NCBI GenBank assembly: GCA_006226595.1
Contig: SBGP01000091.1
Location: 1-64,000, forward strand
Direction: 5' to 3'
Length of the DNA stretch: 64,000 bases
From: Deltaproteobacteria bacterium
Lineage (GTDB): Bacteria; Myxococcota_A; UBA796; GCA-2862545
This document shows, piece by piece, positions 20,484-30,928 of the stretch. A program made the position numbers and the translations under genes. Numbering within the stretch: the first letter of the stretch is position 1; each line of letters opens with the position of its first letter. Under the pieces are notes generated by a model. The model was not told where the DNA came from. It saw only the letters and a list, made by a program, of their open reading frames with translations, and searched no databases.

Positions 20484-22208
20484 ATGCTCGCTCTGTTCCT
20501 CGCCTTGAACGCCCACGCCGCCGATCGCGTGCTCGTGCTCCCTCTCGACGGAGACGGCACGCGGCCGGGTCTCGGTGAGGCACTGTCCGTGTGGCTCAAC
20601 GAAGAGCTCGCGAACAGCCCGGAGCTCGCCGTGGTGCCGCGGAGCGAGGTCGAAGCCGCCATGCCGACCGGCGCCTCCGCCCCCATCACGCTCAACCTCG
20701 ACTACGCGATCAGTGGCAGCTGGGCGGTGATCGGCGGGGACCTCTCCCTGTCACTGCGCGTCGGGCCGAGCGAACTCCGCGCCCGTGGAGCGCTCGGTGA
20801 CTTCGTGCTCGTCGAGCAAGACCTCGCAGCCCAGCTCAGGGTCGCGCTGTCGGGCTCGGGCTCGGCGGCGCCGATTCCCACCGAGAAGCTCGATGCCCTG
20901 ACCGCATACGGCCGGGGCCTGGAGGCGCGACGCGCCGGCAAGCAGTCCGAAGCGCGCGCGGCCTTCGCCGACGCCATGGCGCTCGATCCGCGATTCACGA
21001 CGGCTCGCGACGCGCTCGCCGCGCTCGCTGGGGACGAGCTGCCCCAACACCCGATGCGCACCGCACACGACGCGATCTACGCGAAGTACCCGGCGCTCAC
21101 CGCCGCCCCCACGGATCAGGCCGCGCTCGTCGGCTTCGCGCTCCGCCTGATGGCGCTCGAAGGCGATGGCCTGCACTGCCAGCGTGCGGAGGAAATGGCC
21201 GCGTACCTCGGCTTCGTCGACTACCAGGTGTCGCTGCCCAGCGGGCTCACCGATGCGGCCCTCGCCACCGCGGTCGCCACCGAAGCGCGCGCCCTGCGGT
21301 TCACCGCGATGCCTCGCTCGGTCGCCGACCAGCCCGACGGCGTGTACGCGATGCCGCAGCGCCGCGTCGCGGGGCAGTTCTCGACCACCGCCGACTTCCT
21401 GTTCCGCGAGGCAAGCGCTCGCAACACCCTGGGCAGCGGCCTGTTCGGGGCTCTCGCACACTGCCACGCCCCCGCCGAGGCCCAGCGCGAGTTCGCCGAG
21501 CACGCGACGGCCGCTCTCGCCAAAGGGCAGGCCGACCAGCTGCAGCTGGGACGACCCGCACCCGGGTGGACGCTGCGCGAGTCGATCGAGCTCGCATGGG
21601 CCACCCTGCAGGCAGAGCAGGGCAGCACGCCCGACTTCGAGAAGCGCCTCGACGCGCTCACCGCCACACGCAGCGCCAGCGACCCGGTGCAGCAACAGCT
21701 GCTCGACCGCTCTCGGGATCTGCGGGACAAGGCGGGCCGCGCGGTGCGCGTCGACGTGCGGGCCCCCGCGACCGAGCGCGAGGTTCTCGCCGCGCTACGC
21801 GGTGCCGCGGACGGCGCCGCCAACGTCGTCGATGCGGACATCCCCGGGTGCGCCCACGCGCTGGAGTCGCGCCGCGGCGAGCTCTACTCCTGGGTATCGC
21901 AGGTCGGCACGACCTCGATGGAAGACGTGCGGGTGCGTACCGAGCACCAGCGCGAGGGGCAGATCCTCGCATCGGCCCTCGCCGAGCTCGGCTGTCTCCA
22001 GGGCCAACCGCCGGTGCACGCAAGTCCCGAAGCCGCGCGCACGAGCGTGACGCAGCGCCTCGACGCGCTACCGCCCGGTTCGCTGTCCAAGGGCACCTGC
22101 GGGGACCAGAACACGAAGCTCCGGACCCTGCTCGGAACCCCGCCGAGCCCGGAGGCTGCCGTCGACTGGGTGTTCGCGATGCAGCGCATCGAGCACGAGT
22201 GTCGCTGA
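20484..22208 (+). CDS. Exported protein with CsgG/TolB-like N-terminus and TPR
   Basis: The 574-residue protein has a short signal peptide (MLALFLALNAHA, cut before ADR). Residues 15-120 (VLVLPLDGDGTRPGLGEAL, then SWAVIGG and LSLSLRV) resemble the nucleotide-free TolB/FlgO/CsgG-like fold of envelope assembly proteins. A TPR-like pair follows (AYGRGLEARRAGKQSEARAAF, as one unit). The rest is helical, with several Cys, and is not recognised. It is the first plus-strand gene of the block that leads to the cyclase and CHAT genes, 144 bp upstream of the former. Membership in the same transcription unit is possible but uncertain. Confidence 0.7.
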   Translation: MLALFLALNAHAADRVLVLPLDGDGTRPGLGEALSVWLNEELANSPELAVVPRSEVEAAMPTGASAPITLNLDYAISGSWAVIGGDLSLSLRVGPSELRARGALGDFVLVEQDLAAQLRVALSGSGSAAPIPTEKLDALTAYGRGLEARRAGKQSEARAAFADAMALDPRFTTARDALAALAGDELPQHPMRTAHDAIYAKYPALTAAPTDQAALVGFALRLMALEGDGLHCQRAEEMAAYLGFVDYQVSLPSGLTDAALATAVATEARALRFTAMPRSVADQPDGVYAMPQRRVAGQFSTTADFLFREASARNTLGSGLFGALAHCHAPAEAQREFAEHATAALAKGQADQLQLGRPAPGWTLRESIELAWATLQAEQGSTPDFEKRLDALTATRSASDPVQQQLLDRSRDLRDKAGRAVRVDVRAPATEREVLAALRGAADGAANVVDADIPGCAHALESRRGELYSWVSQVGTTSMEDVRVRTEHQREGQILASALAELGCLQGQPPVHASPEAARTSVTQRLDALPPGSLSKGTCGDQNTKLRTLLGTPPSPEAAVDWVFAMQRIEHECR

Positions 22209-22352: not shown

Positions 22353-23978
22353 GTGGCGAATAAGCCTCCCGCGCCGCCGCCGTCCCTTCCGGGCGGCCTT
22401 CGCAGCATCATCCCCAAGGCAGCGCCGGTCACCCGAACGGTCGCACCAGAAGCGTCCGCGCCCGCCCAGGCACCTGCGCCAGTGGCCAAGCCCAGGCCCA
22501 AGGCGGCCCCTCCTCGCGGCGGCATCCCGCAGCTCATTCCCGGAAGCGAGGTCGAGCGCTACGTGATCGAGGCCCGCCTCGGCGCCGGTCGCATGTCGAC
22601 CACCTACCGCGCCCGACACACCATCCTCGACACGTTGCACGCGCTGACCCTGCCGAACGAAGCCAACAAGTCGCTGCACCGCTGGCTGATCAACGGCGCG
22701 AAGACCCAGGCGAGCCTGCACCACGGCACGGTCGTCGGCGTCACCGATGTCGTCGACCACAACGGCATCCCGGGCATCGTCTTCGAGCACGTGGACGGGC
22801 CGACGCTCGAGGACTTCATTGCCTCGCATCAGCTCGACGAGAACGGCGTCGACGCGATCGCCGGCGGCATCATCGACGCGGTGGCTTGGCTCCACCGCAA
22901 CGGCGTGGTCCATCGCAACCTGAAGCCACGCAACATCGTGATCGATCTCGGCGGCGACAACGCCGTGCCGCGCATCACCGACTTCACGCTGGCCAAGGTC
23001 ATGGGCAAGGAGGGTCGTCGCAAGAAGGCCCGCGTCTTCGGCACCGCCTCGTACATGTCCCCCGAGCAGACGGTGAACTCGAACGACGTCGACAACCGCT
23101 CGGACCTGTGGGCCCTCGGTGCGCTGCTCTACCTGCTCGCGACGAAGCGCACGGCATTCCCCGACGGCGAGGACGTGTTCGAGCGCGTGCGCGAAGGTCG
23201 CTACCAGCCGCTCATGCAGCTGCTCCCCAACGCGCCCATGCGCTGGGTCGAGGCCATCGACGCCGCCCTGACCATCGATCTCGACGAGCGCGTGCCCACT
23301 GCCGAGGAGCTCGGCGACCTGTGGTTCGCGGACGTGACCTCGATCACCAAGATGTCGTCGCGCATCGCTCCGGTCGGTCAGGTCACCCTGGTGTTCACCG
23401 ACGTTCAGGGCTCGACGCGCATCTGGGAGAACAGCCCCGAGACCGCGCGCTTCTCCCTCAAGGCCCACGACGCGGTCATGCGCGCCAGCATCGGCCGTCA
23501 CGGCGGCTACGAGGTGAAGACCGAGGGCGATGCGTTCATGGTCGCGTTCGCACACCCCGCACAGGCCCTGGACTTCTGCCTCGATGTGCAACGCAACCTG
23601 CACGAGCACCCGTGGAGTGACGAGCTGCTCGAGCTCCCCGAGGCGTGCGAAGAGGGCGCCTTCCGCGGCATGCGCGTGCGTATGGGCATCCACACCGGCG
23701 AGCCCGAGGTCCGCCCGCACAACAACATGGTCGACTACTTCGGTCCCATGGTGAACCGCGCGGCCCGCATTGCCCACGCAGGCCATGGCGGCCAGGTGCT
23801 CATCTCTCGCGAGAGCTGGGACCTGCTCGACGGCAAGAACACCGAGCCGGTGATCGAGCGCGTGCTCGGCCAGTTCCTGCTCCGCGGCCTGTCCGGCACC
23901 CAGGAGATCCTCCAGGTTCTTCCTGCCGCCCTCTCCGACCGCACCTTCCCGCCGGTCCGCGCCGAACCCGCCAGCTAG
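22353..23978 (+). CDS. Pseudokinase fused to class III nucleotide cyclase
   Basis: A 541-residue protein from a GTG start. After a Pro/Ala-rich linker, residues 68-325 align with the Ser/Thr kinases at 51289 and 63719, but key residues are lost: the ATP-binding Lys is T99, HRD is HRN (187-189) and DFG is DFT (210-212), so it is likely catalytically dead. Residues 343-520 form a class III cyclase: D350 in LVFTDVQGST and D393 in KTEGDAFM bind metal, K389 and D461 match adenine-specifying positions, and N468/R472 in NRAARI stabilise the transition state. It should make cAMP in the cytoplasm. Regulation through the pseudokinase, as in receptor guanylyl cyclases, is inferred. Confidence 0.88.
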   Translation: MANKPPAPPPSLPGGLRSIIPKAAPVTRTVAPEASAPAQAPAPVAKPRPKAAPPRGGIPQLIPGSEVERYVIEARLGAGRMSTTYRARHTILDTLHALTLPNEANKSLHRWLINGAKTQASLHHGTVVGVTDVVDHNGIPGIVFEHVDGPTLEDFIASHQLDENGVDAIAGGIIDAVAWLHRNGVVHRNLKPRNIVIDLGGDNAVPRITDFTLAKVMGKEGRRKKARVFGTASYMSPEQTVNSNDVDNRSDLWALGALLYLLATKRTAFPDGEDVFERVREGRYQPLMQLLPNAPMRWVEAIDAALTIDLDERVPTAEELGDLWFADVTSITKMSSRIAPVGQVTLVFTDVQGSTRIWENSPETARFSLKAHDAVMRASIGRHGGYEVKTEGDAFMVAFAHPAQALDFCLDVQRNLHEHPWSDELLELPEACEEGAFRGMRVRMGIHTGEPEVRPHNNMVDYFGPMVNRAARIAHAGHGGQVLISRESWDLLDGKNTEPVIERVLGQFLLRGLSGTQEILQVLPAALSDRTFPPVRAEPAS

Positions 23979-24071: not shown

Positions 24072-24875
24072 ATGCTCACCCTGCTCCTCGCCTCGGCCCT
24101 CGCCGCCGACCCCGCCGTCGTCGTCACCACGCGCGGCCAGGTGAAGGTCTACGCCGATGGCGCGGCGAGCGAGGCCCCCGCGCCCCCGTTCGCCCTGCAG
24201 GAGGGTCAGGCGCTCGAGGTGCCCGAGGGTGGGCTCGTCGTCGTGCTCTACCAGGGCGCCGCAAACCAGGTACGCGGCCCGGACCGGGTCGAGCTCGCCG
24301 GGCTGCGTCCCGCCGAGGCGGTGAGCAAAGACCAGGTGGGCGTGCTCAACGACCTGTTCTCTCGTGAGCTGTCCACCGAGACCGCGGGCGCCAGCCGAGC
24401 CGGCGACGTGCGCATGGTGCGACCCGTTCCCGGCGGCACGGTGCTCGGTCCCCAGAACTTCGCGTGGGCGTGCAACGGGGTGTGCGGCGAGGAGCAGGTC
24501 AGCGTCTACGACTTCCGCGAGGACGAGGTCGTGTGGACGGCCAAGGGCTCCGGATCCGTCGAGTATGCCGGCCCCGAACTGCACCCCGGTGCGTACACCT
24601 TCATGGTCAGTGGTCGCGAGTTCGCGTTCACCGTGGCTCCGCCGGCGACCCGCGACTCCGCCGAGAAGGCCCGCGCCGCCGCCATGGCCGCCGCGCGCGC
24701 CCTGCCGGCCGACGACCCAGCCGCCGTGGCCGTGCCCGCGACCGTGCTCTACCAGGCCGGGCTCGCGAGCGAGGCGCTGTGGCTGATCGACCAGGCGCTG
24801 GCCAAGCGCCCGGAGAATGCCGAGCTGCAGGCCATGCGCGCCGAGTTCGAGAAGCGAGCGGGCATCGCTCGGTGA
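24072..24875 (+). CDS. Exported FecR-like protein with TPR tail
   Basis: The 267-residue protein starts at an ATG after GGAGG plus 4 bases and has a short signal peptide (MLTLLLASALAA). Residues 14-75 (VVVTTRGQVKVYADG ... LQEGQALEVPEGG) match the FecR-type beta domain found in sensors and surface proteins. The C-terminal third looks like TPR (LYQAGLASEALWLIDQAL as the last unit). In other bacteria FecR-domain genes often sit beside CHASE2 cyclase genes, as here. The stop overlaps the GTG of the CHASE2 gene (GTGA). It is probably periplasmic and may pass signals to or receive them from CHASE2. Confidence 0.8.
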   Translation: MLTLLLASALAADPAVVVTTRGQVKVYADGAASEAPAPPFALQEGQALEVPEGGLVVVLYQGAANQVRGPDRVELAGLRPAEAVSKDQVGVLNDLFSRELSTETAGASRAGDVRMVRPVPGGTVLGPQNFAWACNGVCGEEQVSVYDFREDEVVWTAKGSGSVEYAGPELHPGAYTFMVSGREFAFTVAPPATRDSAEKARAAAMAAARALPADDPAAVAVPATVLYQAGLASEALWLIDQALAKRPENAELQAMRAEFEKRAGIAR

Positions 24876-26317
24876 GTGAGCCCTCCCGCGACGAGCTCCC
24901 ATGGTGGGCGCGACGCCCCCGGGCACGCCGCGGACCCGAGCCGTGGAGCCATGCGTCCCGCCTCGTCGCCTACGAGGTGTACGTCATCCTCACCACTGCG
25001 GTCGCCGCCACGGTGCTCGCCTTCATCGGATTTCGCGGTCAGTTCCTCGACCTGTACACCCGCATGCACCAGGGGGCGCCGGTCTCCGAGGAAGTCGTGC
25101 TCGTCACCATCGGCAGCGAGGCGCTCTACCTGTGGAACAGCGACGAGCCCGAGCCCGAGGTGACCCCTCGTGGTCTGCTCGCCGAGGTCGTGCAGTTCCT
25201 CGATGCCGCCGGCGCCAACGTGATCGTCCTCGACTTCCTGCTCGACCGGCCGACCTCGAGCGACGAGAAGCTCGCCAAGGCCGCGGCCCAGCACGGCGCC
25301 GTGCTCCTCGCCGAGCGCTACCAGCTCGCCGAACCCGGCACCGGGGTCGAGTTCGTCGCGGGCACCACCCCCGAGCTCGTCGAGTCCACCGTCCAGGGAC
25401 TCGCCAACTTTCAGCTCGAGTCGCCCACCGTGTTCAGCGGGGAGAGCGTGGTGCGGCGGGTGCCGCTGGTCCGCCGCGTGGCGCGTGCCCACCTCTCCGG
25501 CATCTTTCCCGCCAACCTCGTGGGCGCGCGCATGAGCGATGCCGAAGTGTTGCCGTCGATGGGCCTCGGCGCCGTGTGGCTGCACCGCGCCCGACAGGCG
25601 GACCCCAAGGCTTCCTACGACACCCTGCTCAAGACGCTCGACAGCCAGTGCTCCGGCCATCCCCTGCGCTGTGAGTCCAGCCCCGCGGACCTGCACGTCG
25701 CGGGGCTTCCGCATGCGGTTCACGAGCCACTGCACATCAACTACCGCGGCTCCGAGCGCGGAGACCGGCTGCCCACCGTGCGCGCCGCGGAGATCTTGCG
25801 CCTCATGGCCGAGCCCGCGCTGCTTGCGGACCTCGGCGTCGCCTCCGAGGTGCCGGTGCCCGACCGCTACAAACAGCTGTTCGACGGCAAGATCGCGGTG
25901 GTCGGTCGCGTCGATGGCAGCGACCACCTGCTCACCCCCTACGCGTTCCCGATGTACCTCCGGCCGGACATGGCCGGCCCGCGCATCCAGGCCCAGGTGA
26001 TCGACACGCTCGCCTCGGGTCGCCACGTGCGCTTCGTGCCGGGGATCTTCGGCTGGTTGCTCGCCGCGGCGCTCGGCGTGGGCGTCGTCCGGAGCGCCCG
26101 ATTCTTGCGGGACGACGTGCACGGCCTGCTGTGGATCGCCGTCAGCGGGGGACTCGCGGTGCTCGGCCTCGGCCTGTTCATCGCCACCGATGGCCTCGTG
26201 TTCGAGCTCGGACTGCCGCTCGGCGCGTGCCTGGGCATGGTCTTCCTCACCCAGCTCCGTGCGTGGGCCGAGTTCGACGTCGGAGTAGGACTCGAGAGCG
26301 GGGATGAGGCATCATGA
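24872..26317 (+). CDS. CHASE2-domain membrane sensor without output domain
   Basis: A 481-residue protein from a GTG overlapping the previous stop. One membrane segment (about 31-53) is followed by a periplasmic CHASE2 domain (about 60-385; RGLLAEVVQFLDAAGANVIV and LDFLLD are typical) and three C-terminal membrane segments (about 390-465). CHASE2 proteins normally end in a cyclase, kinase or phosphodiesterase domain. This one stops about 15 residues after the last membrane helix, so any output must come from a partner. The cyclase encoded two genes upstream is the obvious candidate, by inference. The stop overlaps the next gene as ATGA. Confidence 0.87.
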   Translation: MSEPSRDELPWWARRPRARRGPEPWSHASRLVAYEVYVILTTAVAATVLAFIGFRGQFLDLYTRMHQGAPVSEEVVLVTIGSEALYLWNSDEPEPEVTPRGLLAEVVQFLDAAGANVIVLDFLLDRPTSSDEKLAKAAAQHGAVLLAERYQLAEPGTGVEFVAGTTPELVESTVQGLANFQLESPTVFSGESVVRRVPLVRRVARAHLSGIFPANLVGARMSDAEVLPSMGLGAVWLHRARQADPKASYDTLLKTLDSQCSGHPLRCESSPADLHVAGLPHAVHEPLHINYRGSERGDRLPTVRAAEILRLMAEPALLADLGVASEVPVPDRYKQLFDGKIAVVGRVDGSDHLLTPYAFPMYLRPDMAGPRIQAQVIDTLASGRHVRFVPGIFGWLLAAALGVGVVRSARFLRDDVHGLLWIAVSGGLAVLGLGLFIATDGLVFELGLPLGACLGMVFLTQLRAWAEFDVGVGLESGDEAS

Positions 26318-27093
26318 GTCGGGGGTTTTCAACTCCCATCGGAGTCTTCATGCTGCGCGCACTGCTCGCCCTGTTCCTGCTGCTGCCGAGCCTGGCCCTG
26401 GCCGGGCCGAACACGCTGGCGGTGCTGTACTTCGAGAACACTGGCAACCCCGAGCTCGAGCCTCTCAAGGTGGGCCTCGCCGACATGATGATCTCGGACC
26501 TGCAGGACGCGGAGCCGGTGAAGGTCGTCGAACGTGCGCGACTGCAGTCCATCCTCGACGAGCTGGAGCTCGGTCACAGCGGCGTGGTCGACCCGGACTC
26601 CGCGGCGAAGGTCGGCAAGCTGCTCGGCGCCGAGTGGATGATCCTCGGGTCGTACTTCGAGCTCATGGGCACCCTCCACATCAGCGCCAAGCTCGTCCGC
26701 GTCGAGACCTCGGAGATCGTCCACGCCGAGGTGGTGCGCGACAAGCCGAAGGAGTTCATCGCGCTCGAGCAGCAGCTGTCCGGAAAGCTGCGTGACGCGC
26801 TGTTGAGCCGTACCGCTCCAGCGCCCGCCGCCCCGGAGCCCGCCGGCCGTCGTCGCGACGAGGGATCGACGGGCACTGCCCCCTCCCCCGTGCCGGCGAG
26901 CACGGCCCCGGCCACCGCGGAGGTCGTCGCCGAGGACGCGGACACACTCGCGGCGGCCATCTCGTTCTCCGAGGGCCTCATCTACATGGACAACAAGGAC
27001 ATGGAGCGGGCGCGGGACAGCTTCGAGAAGGCGGTGGCGCAGGACCCCGGCCTCGACGACGCCAAGGCCCACCTCGCCGCCCTCGATCTCTGA
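26314..27093 (+). CDS. CsgG/FlgO-like exported protein with TPR tail
   Basis: The 259-residue reading starts at an ATG overlapping the CHASE2 stop. An ATG at 26350 with an equally good ribosome-binding site would give 247 residues beginning MLRALLALF, which is a cleaner signal peptide. The mature part (NTLAVLYFENTG, VVERARLQSILDE, LGAEWMILGSYF) is like CsgG/TolB-type periplasmic proteins that sense or help assemble envelope complexes. A Pro/Ala-rich linker leads to one TPR unit (DMERARDSFEKAVAQDP). No lipobox is seen. It lies six bases before the CHAT gene. Confidence 0.82.
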   Translation: MSRGFSTPIGVFMLRALLALFLLLPSLALAGPNTLAVLYFENTGNPELEPLKVGLADMMISDLQDAEPVKVVERARLQSILDELELGHSGVVDPDSAAKVGKLLGAEWMILGSYFELMGTLHISAKLVRVETSEIVHAEVVRDKPKEFIALEQQLSGKLRDALLSRTAPAPAAPEPAGRRRDEGSTGTAPSPVPASTAPATAEVVAEDADTLAAAISFSEGLIYMDNKDMERARDSFEKAVAQDPGLDDAKAHLAALDL

Positions 27094-27099
27094 TCGCGC

Positions 27100-29709
27100 A
27101 TGCGCCTACGCCTGCTCGCCCTCGGCCTCTCGCTGGGCCTGCTCCTCGGAGCCGGCCTCGATGACGCGGTGACCGCTGGCCAGAGCGCGTTCGAGCGCGG
27201 CGATCTGGCCGACGCGCTGGTTCAGTGGTCCGTGGGACTCGACCTCGCACGCAAGCAGGGGGACGCCGACGCGGAGCTGGACCTGTCGCTGCGCCTGGCT
27301 GCGGCACATCGCGAGCTCGGCCGCATGAAGACCGCACGCGATCTGCTCGATGCCAGCGAGAAGCTCGCGAGCTCCGACGTGGAGCGCGGGCGCTGGCTGA
27401 CCGCGCAGGGACGCCTCGACCTCGCCCTCGGCGACGCGCGCAGCGCGGAGAGGCGGTTCAAGGACGCGTTCGCGGCCCACCAGCGGGGCGAGGACCCGCG
27501 CGGCGCAGCCAATGCCGCCCTCAACCTGGGCCTGGCCCGCAAGGCGCTCGGCAAGCCCGAGGCCGAGAAGGCGCTGATCGCCGCGCGCGACCTGTTCCAG
27601 ACCCTCGGCGACGACGTAGGCGTCGGCGACGCCCTCACCAACCTCGGCGCGCTGTACCGCAACCAGACGCGACTGGAGCTGGCCCGCACCACGCTCGAGG
27701 CCGCCATCGAGGCCTTCGACCGCGGGAACGACGCGCAGGGCGCGGCGGACGCGATGACCAACCTGGCGCTCGTGTTCGCCGACCTGGCCCGGCCGACTGA
27801 TGCGCGACGTCTGTACGAGTCCGCGCTGTCGACGGCACGGGCCCGCAAGGATGTGCGCCGTCAGGCCACCCTGCTCCTCAACCTCGGCAGTCTCGACGCG
27901 CGCGGCCAGCGCCTCGAGGACGCCGCACGCCGATTCGAGGCCGCCGCGGAGGCGTTCCGAACCGTCGGGGCCGAGCGCGACGCGCTCTCCGCCGAGCTGG
28001 CCCTCGCGGGCCTGGCCCCGAGCGTCGCCGCCTATGACCGTGCCCGCGAGACCGCCGTCAGCCTGGGCGACAAGCGCGCCGAGGCGATCGCCTGCCTGAA
28101 CCTCGCCGCCCTGACCGACGACGGAGAGGCCCGGCGCTACGCCACCCGCGCCAGCGAGCTCGCCGACGAACTCGGCCTCTCGGGGCTGCGCTGGCGAGCG
28201 CTGACGATGAGCGGCATGCTGGAGATCGCGCGCGGCAAGGACAAGGCCGGGATCGCCGCACTCGAGGAGGCCGTTGCGGTGCTCGAGCGGGCCCGACTGG
28301 GGCTCGACCGCGAGGAAGGCGACCGCTTCGTCACCCAGCACAGCGCGCCATACACCGCCCTCGTCGACGCCCTGCTCGGAGCCGGGCGCACCGCCGAGGC
28401 CATGGCCTACGCCGAGCGGCTGCAACGCACCGAGGCCGGCACCGCCTCGCTCGACGGCAGCGCCGGCGAGAAGGCGCGGGCCATCGACCAGGAGCTCGCC
28501 CACGTCGAGGAAGCACTCCAGGCCGAGCTCTCCGCCGCATCGCCGTCCGCCGAGCGCACCGTGGCGCTGCGCAAGCGACTGGCCGAGCTGCACGTGGCCT
28601 TCGCGGACGAGGTGGATCGTCTGCGCGCGGCCCATCCCGAGTTCGCCCAGGCCACCCAGGTCGATCCCGAGGAGCTCCAGGCCCTGCAGAGCGATCTGCC
28701 CGAGGGTGTACTGGTCCTGCAGCCGATCGCGCTCGAGGACCGGCTCGTGCTGATGGTGCTGTCCCGCAAGGGCCTGCGCGCCGTGACCGTCGACGTGCCC
28801 GGCGCCGACGTCGACAAGCAGGTCGGACGCCTGGCGCGTAGCCTGCGCGCGGAGATGACCCAGGACCCCGCGTGGACCGAGGAGATGTGCGACAAGCTCG
28901 GGGCCTGGTTCCTCGCGCCGATCGCCGCCGAGCTCGACGACGCGAAGACCGTGGTGGTGTCGGCGAGCGGCAACCTGCGCCAGCTCCCGTTCGCGCTGCT
29001 TCGGCACGAAGGCAAGTACCTGGTCGAGCGCGCGGCGGTGGCCAGCGTCACGCACATCGGCTCGCTGCAGGCCCACGCGACGATCTCCGAGCGCTTCCAG
29101 GTCGAGGGCCGCACCCTCGGCTTGCTCGGCAACCCGGACGGCAGCCTGCCTGGCGCAGAGGACGAGGTCACCGCGATCGCCAAGCGCTTCCCGGGCTCCG
29201 AGAAGATCGTGGGCGCCGCAAGCCTCGAGCGCTTCGAAGCCCTGGCGCGCGGCAAGCGCACGCTGCACCTCGCGACCCACGGCATCGTCGACCCGATGAC
29301 CCCGACCCAGAGCTACCTGGTGATGGGCCCGGAGGAGCGGCTGTCGTACCGCATGATCCCCGGACTCGCGCCGGATCTCGGGCACGTGCGCATGGTGGTG
29401 CTCTCCGCCTGCGAGAGCGGACTGCCGGTGAAGGCTCGCACCGCCGACGAACAGGGGCTGGTGATCTCGATCAACGGCCTCGCCGCACAGTTCCGGCGCG
29501 CCGGCGTCGAGACCCTGGTGGCGAGCCTGTGGCGCGTCGACGACGACGGGACCCGAGCCCTGATGACGGCGTTCTATGACGAGCTGGGCGCGGGCCGAGA
29601 CGTCGCCGCGTCGATGCGAAGCGCTCAACTCGCACTCCTGGCCGATCCAGCGACGGCCCACCCCTGGTACTGGGCAGGATTCTCGGTGGTCGGCGACTGG
29701 CGTCGCTAA
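27100..29709 (+). CDS. Exported TPR-CHAT caspase-like protease
   Basis: The 869-residue protein has an N-terminal hydrophobic signal (LLALGLSLGLLLGAG), then many TPR units (about 24-430), a helical linker and a C-terminal CHAT domain (about 560-869). CHAT proteins are caspase-related cysteine peptidases. The catalytic pair is present: H727 in LATHG and C771 in LSACESG. Known CHAT proteases are often cytoplasmic, but this one seems to be exported, like its operon partners. Its substrate could be an envelope protein, and the CsgG-like and FecR-like neighbours are candidates for partners. Some CHAT-family proteins lack activity, so proteolysis is likely but not proven. Confidence 0.9.
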   Translation: MRLRLLALGLSLGLLLGAGLDDAVTAGQSAFERGDLADALVQWSVGLDLARKQGDADAELDLSLRLAAAHRELGRMKTARDLLDASEKLASSDVERGRWLTAQGRLDLALGDARSAERRFKDAFAAHQRGEDPRGAANAALNLGLARKALGKPEAEKALIAARDLFQTLGDDVGVGDALTNLGALYRNQTRLELARTTLEAAIEAFDRGNDAQGAADAMTNLALVFADLARPTDARRLYESALSTARARKDVRRQATLLLNLGSLDARGQRLEDAARRFEAAAEAFRTVGAERDALSAELALAGLAPSVAAYDRARETAVSLGDKRAEAIACLNLAALTDDGEARRYATRASELADELGLSGLRWRALTMSGMLEIARGKDKAGIAALEEAVAVLERARLGLDREEGDRFVTQHSAPYTALVDALLGAGRTAEAMAYAERLQRTEAGTASLDGSAGEKARAIDQELAHVEEALQAELSAASPSAERTVALRKRLAELHVAFADEVDRLRAAHPEFAQATQVDPEELQALQSDLPEGVLVLQPIALEDRLVLMVLSRKGLRAVTVDVPGADVDKQVGRLARSLRAEMTQDPAWTEEMCDKLGAWFLAPIAAELDDAKTVVVSASGNLRQLPFALLRHEGKYLVERAAVASVTHIGSLQAHATISERFQVEGRTLGLLGNPDGSLPGAEDEVTAIAKRFPGSEKIVGAASLERFEALARGKRTLHLATHGIVDPMTPTQSYLVMGPEERLSYRMIPGLAPDLGHVRMVVLSACESGLPVKARTADEQGLVISINGLAAQFRRAGVETLVASLWRVDDDGTRALMTAFYDELGAGRDVAASMRSAQLALLADPATAHPWYWAGFSVVGDWRR

Positions 29710-29740: not shown

Positions 29741-29760
29741 AATCGCGCATGATCGCGATT
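29741..29760. repeat. Perfect inverted repeat after the CHAT gene
   Basis: AATCGCG (29741-29747), six-base loop CATGAT, CGCGATT (29754-29760). It lies between the CHAT stop and the MopE-type gene. There is no T run, so it may be a weak transcript end or a protein-binding site. Confidence 0.4.
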
Positions 29761-29794
29761 GCGACAGGCCAGACCCACGGGTAGCATGCCCGCC

Positions 29795-30928
29795 ATGCGC
29801 ACCCTTACCTTCGCCCTGCTCGCCCTCGCTCCCACCGCCTTCGCCGGCACCGCGACCGCCACGTTTGGCGGGTCCGGCAGCTCGAACGCAGGCAACAACG
29901 ACGTCAAGCTGAACCTGTACACGGTCAGCCAGACGGTGGATCTGATCTCCTTCGAGCAGTTCCTCGCGTCGGACGGCGGTGAGCAGATCACGTGGGTGAT
30001 CTACGAGGGCAACAACGCCGGTGGCTACGACCTGACCTGGTCGTCGGACGCGCAGCTCGGCCAGGCCTCGAACGGCGCCTTCCAGAGCTCCGGTCCGGTG
30101 AACATGACGCTGTCGCCCGGCGTCGAGTACGTGCTCGGCGTGTACCTCGACAACACCGTCGGCTACTTCTGGGATGCGGGCGGTGGCACGCAGCTCGGGA
30201 TCACCCACGGCGGCGCGCTGTACAACGGTAACGGCACCACCGCCTTCCTGCCGGATCCGCTCTACGCGCAGACCTACAGCCACGCCTACAACCAGCGCCT
30301 GACGATCGACACGACCGGCGGTGGCGGTGGTGACAACGACAACGACGGGTACTCCGTCGGTCAGGGTGACTGCGACGACAACGACGCGAGCGTGTTCCCG
30401 AGTGCGCCCGAGACGTGCGACGGTGTCGACAACAACTGCAACGGCGCCGTCGACGAGGGCGTGACCACCACGTACTACAACGACAACGACGGCGACGGCT
30501 TCGGCACCTTCGGCTCGGCGTTCGAGGCGTGCACCGAGCCGTCGAACGCGAGCGACGTGGGCGGCGACTGCAACGACCGTGAGCCGCTCATCAACCCGAA
30601 CGCGACCGAAGAATGCGACGGGTTCGACAACAACTGCAACGGCCAGACGGACGAGGGCTGTGGCGGGGACGCGGACACGGATGCCGACACCGACTCGGAC
30701 ACCGACGCGGACGCCGACAGCGACAGCGACGCCGACAGTGACAGCGACGCCGATACCGACGCGGACAGCGACACCGACACCGACACCGACACCGGGCCGG
30801 TGGATTCGGACCCGATCACGGGGGACACCGACCTCACGCCGCTGAAGTGTGGCTGCAACGCGGGTCCGGCGAGTGGTTCGGCGCTGATCGTGCTCGGCCT
30901 CCTCGCGCTGGTCCGCCGCCGCGACTAG
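29795..30928 (+). CDS. Surface protein with MopE metal-binding motifs and sorting tail
   Basis: The 377-residue protein has a signal peptide (LTFALLALAPTAFA), an N-terminal domain of about 165 residues of unknown fold, then two MopE-type units (DNDGYSVGQGDCDDND, ETCDGVDNNCNGAVDEG, DGDGFGTFGS, EECDGFDNNCNGQTDEGC) typical of calcium- or copper-binding surface proteins. A 42-residue Asp-Ala/Ser/Thr repeat follows. The end, KCGCNAGPASG then a hydrophobic stretch and RRRD, is a MYXO-CTERM-like sorting signal, so the protein is probably displayed at the cell surface. An ATG three codons upstream (29786) is an alternative start. Confidence 0.88.
   Translation: MRTLTFALLALAPTAFAGTATATFGGSGSSNAGNNDVKLNLYTVSQTVDLISFEQFLASDGGEQITWVIYEGNNAGGYDLTWSSDAQLGQASNGAFQSSGPVNMTLSPGVEYVLGVYLDNTVGYFWDAGGGTQLGITHGGALYNGNGTTAFLPDPLYAQTYSHAYNQRLTIDTTGGGGGDNDNDGYSVGQGDCDDNDASVFPSAPETCDGVDNNCNGAVDEGVTTTYYNDNDGDGFGTFGSAFEACTEPSNASDVGGDCNDREPLINPNATEECDGFDNNCNGQTDEGCGGDADTDADTDSDTDADADSDSDADSDSDADTDADSDTDTDTDTGPVDSDPITGDTDLTPLKCGCNAGPASGSALIVLGLLALVRRRD
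30668..30793 (+). repeat. Asp-X dipeptide microsatellite (21 units)
   Basis: The 126 bases encode 21 repeats of Asp plus Ala, Ser or Thr. Codons vary (GAC with GCG, GCC, AGC, ACC, TCG), so the peptide pattern is kept more strictly than the DNA. It forms an acidic spacer before the sorting tail. Confidence 0.85.

Follow-up and report, generated by a model that had tools for sequence, protein, structure and literature searches.

A four-gene block that may couple a CHASE2 sensor to an exported CHAT protease in one bacterial order

Bacteria commonly use the sensor domain CHASE2, though most of the signals it detects are unknown; detailed studies of CHAT proteases concern intracellular ones. Here we describe a block of four genes that encode, in order, an MtxA-like or FecR-like protein (gene 1), a CHASE2 membrane protein, a CsgG-like protein, and a TPR-CHAT protein. 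The block lies in a 64,000-nucleotide stretch, called the window below, of contig SBGP01000091.1 (assembly GCA_006226595.1). The window's genome is a 7.2-Mb draft, probably from the Myxococcota or a close group; "the phylum" means the phylum of this genome, and loci are cited by L numbers. A CHAT protein that appears active, placed outside the cytoplasm next to a CHASE2 protein with no output domain, would be a testable case of periplasmic caspase-like signaling.

In magnetotactic bacteria, mtxA lies directly before a gene for a CHASE2-adenylate cyclase (PMC4439547). As in that locus, the window has a putative exported Ig-plus-TPR protein encoded beside CHASE2, but its CHASE2 protein is without the cyclase and its block adds the CsgG-like and CHAT genes. 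The BiofilmReg operon of Burkholderia encodes a response regulator, a LysM-FecR protein, a CHASE2 histidine kinase, and a DUF4136 protein (PMC5192318). There too, an exported FecR-type gene is immediately 5′ of the CHASE2 gene and a further gene is 3′, but no histidine kinase or response regulator was found in the window's block, and the exported protease is extra. The original prediction, made from the window's sequence, held that FecR next to CHASE2 was known from other bacteria, and this published CHASE2-FecR pair agrees with it. CHASE2-DUF928 has been noted in Nostoc punctiforme (PMC5587647). Cyanobacterial CHASE2-DUF928 loci share with the block CHASE2, a small exported protein with a gene 1-like C terminus, and an exported TPR-CHAT protein; they differ in that their CHASE2 proteins may bear N-terminal CHAT or AAA-like sequence or a C-terminal kinase, and in having secretion genes in place of the CsgG-like gene.

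The TPR-CHAT protein also resembles separase and the Craspase TPR-CHAT protein (Csx29): the folds match, and a caspase/separase-like domain bearing a His/Cys dyad comes after helical repeats. Those proteins are cytoplasmic and controlled by RNA or the cell cycle, whereas the window's protein is probably exported. Against the NCBIfam Csx29 model of type III-E Craspase it scored 21 bits (cutoff, 300), and there was no Cas7-11/gRAMP among the genes annotated from 18 to 33 kb of the window. In the open literature searched, outside of which lie subscription papers, we found no paper that puts CHASE2 and CHAT domains together; curated databases may list such architectures. Thus, the claim that a joint system of CHASE2 and an exported protease was undescribed stands as far as that search goes, but the block does not stand alone; it is one variant among a wider set of loci.

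The four genes, all on the plus strand, and the two catalytic codons are as follows.

24072 to 24875, plus strand: gene 1 (MtxA-like/FecR-like), an open reading frame (ORF) of 267 amino acids
24872 to 26317, plus strand: CHASE2 gene, an ORF of 481 amino acids with a GTG start inside the GTGA overlap with gene 1
26314 to 27093, plus strand: CsgG-like gene, an ORF of 259 amino acids with an ATGA overlap with the CHASE2 gene
27100 to 29709, plus strand: TPR-CHAT gene, an ORF of 869 amino acids that starts 6 bases past the CsgG-like stop
29278 to 29280, plus strand: codon of catalytic His727 (HLATHG motif), from the CHAT alignment and a residue check
29410 to 29412, plus strand: codon of catalytic Cys771 (LSACESG motif), from the CHAT alignment and a residue check

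These frames, coordinates, overlaps, and the 6-base gap are as had been claimed. Promoter and terminator scans were uninformative at 70% G+C. What we observed is a conserved gene order, correlated divergence of the four proteins, a CHASE2 protein without an output domain, an intact His/Cys dyad in the CHAT protein, and signal-like N termini on the other three products. We put at about 0.5 the probability that the four genes make up an envelope module in which CHASE2 sensing drives periplasmic proteolysis by the CHAT protein.

The four genes are one unit inherited within a single bacterial order. A protein search found a CHASE2 orthologue in 12 of the 58 genomes of the order (the window's own included), with 42 to 70% identity among the relatives, and a 13th block, a complete one, was found later in L058. 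As far as the contigs reach, the order gene 1-CHASE2-CsgG-CHAT is kept in all 12 and in L058, at 35 to 70% protein identity among relatives. A separate search located the CHAT partner; it shares the contig of CHASE2 except where that contig ends, in which case it lies on a different one. In L019, ∼2 kb of additional DNA separates CHASE2 from CsgG. Both the CHASE2 frame and the gene 1 frame of L017 are interrupted, so the L017 block may be decaying or may contain assembly errors. The pairwise distances of the four proteins are correlated (Mantel r, 0.85 to 0.96), as expected of co-inheritance; vertical descent alone would give the same, and the correlation is no proof of interaction. CsgG-CHAT is found with no CHASE2 gene in L059 and, beside a contig end, in L057, and the genomes of these two loci carry FecR-like or gene 1-like genes with CHASE2-cyclase genes elsewhere (L053 and L056). 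Because a scan of the whole collection with the CHASE2 alignment gave only seven block relatives and one weak gammaproteobacterial match, wider spread was sought through families and neighborhoods.

The CHASE2 domain spans residues 46 to 399 (Pfam E value, 1.5e-24; 87 bits versus a cutoff of 26.3). By hydropathy, a first transmembrane segment lies at about residues 36 to 54 and three more are predicted within 388 to 459. Because 22 residues remain after the last of these, the window's protein has no output domain, as had been claimed, and no cyclase, kinase, or HD-GYP domain was found on its chain or in 11 aligned orthologues. None of the 12 fetched block loci has a cyclase on CHASE2, whereas 75 of the 91 loci from the rest of the phylum do. 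The window's genome has a second CHASE2 gene (L002/L027, contig C33) for a protein of ∼573 amino acids, the C-terminal region of which reads as a class III cyclase.

In the TPR-CHAT protein, the CHAT domain covers residues 595 to 866 (Pfam E value, 4.6e-52; 178 bits versus a cutoff of 24), and there is a TPR match as well. H727 and C771 were verified as His and Cys and, as the original prediction implied, are the catalytic pair by alignment; both are invariant across 11 CHAT homologues, within a dense run of invariant columns. With this intact dyad the protein is apparently an active caspase/separase-like protein, with putative protease activity. Its structural model, in which TPR-like helix pairs form a long array, resembles separase and Csx29. 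The anti-sigma factor DdvA was also among the matches in the CHAT-related fold search, and a literature search on DdvA found nothing. Most of the matches listed from a PDB sequence search with the CHAT protein were TPR chains. Signal peptides were judged from sequence and hydropathy only. On this basis, most CHAT homologues begin with a signal-like hydrophobic stretch, and we infer that the CHAT protein is exported, in line with the prediction. The CHAT proteins of L022, L024, L025, L032, and L058 have Tat-like RRDF motifs (MRRRDF, ARRDF/RRRDF). They belong to one family of the order; the CHAT signals of the window's family look Sec-like.

Gene 1 had been called an exported FecR-like protein. 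Its N terminus is indeed signal-like, but the FecR label turned out to be weaker than stated. The protein had no Pfam or NCBIfam match, and the FecR profile PF04773 matched none of nine aligned family members. A profile comparison with the FecR-like neighbors of other CHASE2 genes gave a weak match, in the N-terminal part, with an E value of 9e-5 and a probability of 59%; the gene 1 C terminus matched that of DUF928 (E value, 3e-4). The AlphaFold model starts with a FecR-like beta domain, followed by an Ig-like domain in which C134 and C138 are conserved in the family alignment and then by C-terminal TPR-like helical repeats. Its predicted local distance difference test (pLDDT) score is 76 and its predicted TM-score (pTM) is 0.55. 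The best PDB match of this model by Foldseek was the MtxA C-terminal domain, 4z29 (E value, 5e-4; TM-score, 0.38 on the query and 0.54 on the target), and the gene adjoins a CHASE2 gene, as mtxA does. Profile comparison and modeled fold thus suggest that gene 1 is of the FecR/MtxA type and is better called MtxA-like than FecR-like. PDB sequence searches with the gene 1, CHASE2, and CsgG-like proteins gave nothing useful, only TPR or chance matches.

The exported CsgG/TolB-like protein of the prediction stood in part. The CsgG-like protein has a Pfam CsgG match (E value, 1e-12; 48 bits versus a cutoff of 20.8) and a hydrophobic N terminus; its architecture is a CsgG/LpoB-like alpha-beta domain followed by C-terminal TPR. 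The match is confined to residues 53 to 113, which align with positions 38 to 97 of the 210 in the profile (60 of 210), and the window's protein has no lipobox cysteine at its predicted signal cleavage region. Because of this partial coverage and the missing lipobox, it is unlikely to be a CsgG pore.

Related loci occur beyond the order. At the thresholds used, 118 of 380 phylum genomes have CHASE2 and 186 have CHAT. The loci were tallied as profile matches in six frames because mechanical gene calling was sometimes wrong on high-GC contigs. Among the 91 CHASE2 loci fetched from outside the window's order, the surrounding 5 kb contained a FecR-like or DUF928 gene in 58 and CHAT in 7, some of the 7 having been fetched because CHAT was near. 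In a less biased subset, CHAT was near CHASE2 in 3 of 82 loci versus a rough expectation of 0.4, calculated from an assumed average of 2.2 CHAT genes in 6 Mb. The four homologues, which the prediction expected to be neighbors, are thus strongly so within the order; elsewhere in the phylum the association is weak but above expectation. CHASE2 with an exported FecR or DUF928 protein and CHAT recurs in L048 (in the order CHAT-FecR/Ig/TPR-CHASE2 cyclase), L051 (CHAT-CHASE2 cyclase-DUF928), and L052, all in the phylum.

CHASE2-DUF928 with a CHAT gene also occurs on cyanobacterial plasmids (L149 to L151 and L155 to L158), and most of the CHAT proteins there have signal-like N termini. We came to these plasmids by searching for DUF928 or CHASE2, so their recurrence gives no estimate of frequency. 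In L150 (5479 to 7836) and L151 (1642 to 3996), beside DUF928, Pfam places a CHAT domain at the N terminus of the CHASE2 protein, and the CHASE2 proteins of L154 to L156, also beside DUF928, have the same N-terminal CHAT His and Cys motifs by sequence. Genes for filamentous hemagglutinin and/or ShlB/FhaC two-partner secretion adjoin CHASE2-DUF928-CHAT in L150, L151, L155, and L158. On a plasmid of Calothrix sp. 336/3 (L157, 6787 to 9239), a TIR-domain gene is followed immediately by genes for an output-less CHASE2 protein, DUF928, and a 1,415-residue CHAT protein. Such plasmids offer the same partners in cultivable hosts. The window's block, which is specific to its lineage and has no cyclase, is one variant of a wider module of CHASE2 and an exported FecR/MtxA/DUF928 protein, in some loci with an exported CHAT protein.

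In the envelope module that we propose, CHASE2 would be the anchor and sensor in the inner membrane, the gene 1 product and the CsgG-like/TPR protein would be periplasmic adaptors, and TPR-CHAT would act in the periplasm as a cysteine protease that the adaptors or CHASE2 hold or activate. The cell would thus answer an envelope or extracellular signal by cleaving a protein outside the cytoplasm. The separase-like TPR-CHAT of Craspase is a controlled protease (PMC9729208), and the CHASE2 cyclases of S. meliloti act downstream of the outer-membrane protein NsrA, which senses a plant protein (PMC13001267). The block probably arose when a locus with a CHASE2-adenylate cyclase and FecR/DUF928 lost its cyclase and joined a CsgG-CHAT pair; the pieces are held apart in the genomes, described above, that are without the full block. 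More tentatively, and with the odds somewhat against it, the related loci of the phylum and the cyanobacteria may represent a new envelope signaling family. In it, a CHASE2 receptor would be linked to an exported caspase/separase-like protease, which in the window's lineage would replace a cytoplasmic messenger enzyme and elsewhere would act in addition to one.

Two further genes lie upstream of the block.

20484 to 22208, plus strand: probable fifth component, with a hydrophobic N terminus, a CsgG/TolB-like domain, a TPR-like region, and a long C terminus
22353 to 23978, plus strand: soluble fusion of a kinase-like domain and a class III cyclase (Pfam Pkinase, 1.1e-32; Guanylate_cyc, 7.8e-22)

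The former has counterparts ahead of the block in L016, L026, and L058 and ahead of CsgG-CHAT in L059, and none was detected beside the block in the other genomes with enough flank; it is a probable fifth component of the neighborhood in several genomes. The fusion gene lies between it and gene 1. The kinase-like domain has HRN for HRD and DFT for DFG, and the metal-binding motifs of the cyclase domain are apparently intact, possibly making a pseudokinase-regulated cyclase. The gene is absent at this position in L016, the nearest relative and of the same genus, and there are no cyclase matches near the other block loci, so this cyclase cannot be a shared output and is probably not part of the conserved block. 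A CHASE2 protein and cyclase split between two genes was thereby ruled out as a general explanation.

Several points weigh against a periplasmic sensing and proteolysis module. The 13 block loci are homologous and so represent one or a few evolutionary events; outside the order, CHAT adjoins only the minority of CHASE2 genes counted above; and the model of gene 1 is of moderate confidence. Because CHAT precedes the first transmembrane segment in the cyanobacterial fusions, it is probably cytoplasmic there, and a link between CHASE2 and CHAT need not be periplasmic. The output itself may be cytoplasmic, with CHASE2 signaling to a separate partner, here perhaps the 22353 to 23978 protein, and CHAT acting upstream by processing the signal or the adaptor. 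That cyclase gene is just upstream and encodes the usual CHASE2 output of the phylum, and the Calothrix plasmid has a separate TIR-domain gene beside an output-less CHASE2. The cyclase is not shared by the other blocks, however, and no other conserved cytoplasmic gene was identified beside them in flanks that were not exhaustively annotated, and we consider a cytoplasmic output unlikely. By analogy, CHAT proteins can also be structural partners, as is HetF in the divisome: this founding CHAT protein localizes to septa and binds FtsI (PMC8406250). The window's CHAT protein, with its long TPR-like array and partners that carry TPR too, might likewise be an envelope scaffold with proteolysis not its main role. 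The invariance of H727, C771, and their motifs in 11 divergent homologues, and the dense invariant columns around them, make this rather unlikely.

The block might instead be a device for envelope surveillance or cell death, in which the CHAT protease would kill or disarm once CHASE2 had sensed damage or attack. Cyanobacterial CHASE2 relatives that carry N-terminal CHAT or AAA-like sequence or adjoin TIR would fit such a role, as would a published metacaspase-CHASE2 fusion (PMC3501461) and the patchy presence of the block in the order. However, the block appears to be vertically inherited there, and no mobile-element or defense-island setting was seen within 18 to 34 kb of the window, where no search with a defense library was run; we regard a role in conflict as quite improbable. 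Least probable, and very unlikely, is that two independent pairs, gene 1-CHASE2 and CsgG-CHAT, merely share an operon. L059 and, up to the end of its contig, L057 have CsgG-CHAT but no CHASE2, and a gene 1-like/CHASE2-cyclase pair stands apart in L056. Nonetheless, wherever a block-type CHASE2 locus extends far enough, CsgG and CHAT are there too, the genes are tightly coupled with correlated distances, and the CHASE2-CHAT linkage recurs in other lineages.

Directly 3′ of the block, positions 29759 to 30928 of the window encode a MopE-like metal-binding protein with a MYXO-CTERM tail, the motif of which scores just over its cutoff. No counterpart was detected after the other blocks except in L016, where one is in the same place at 58% identity.

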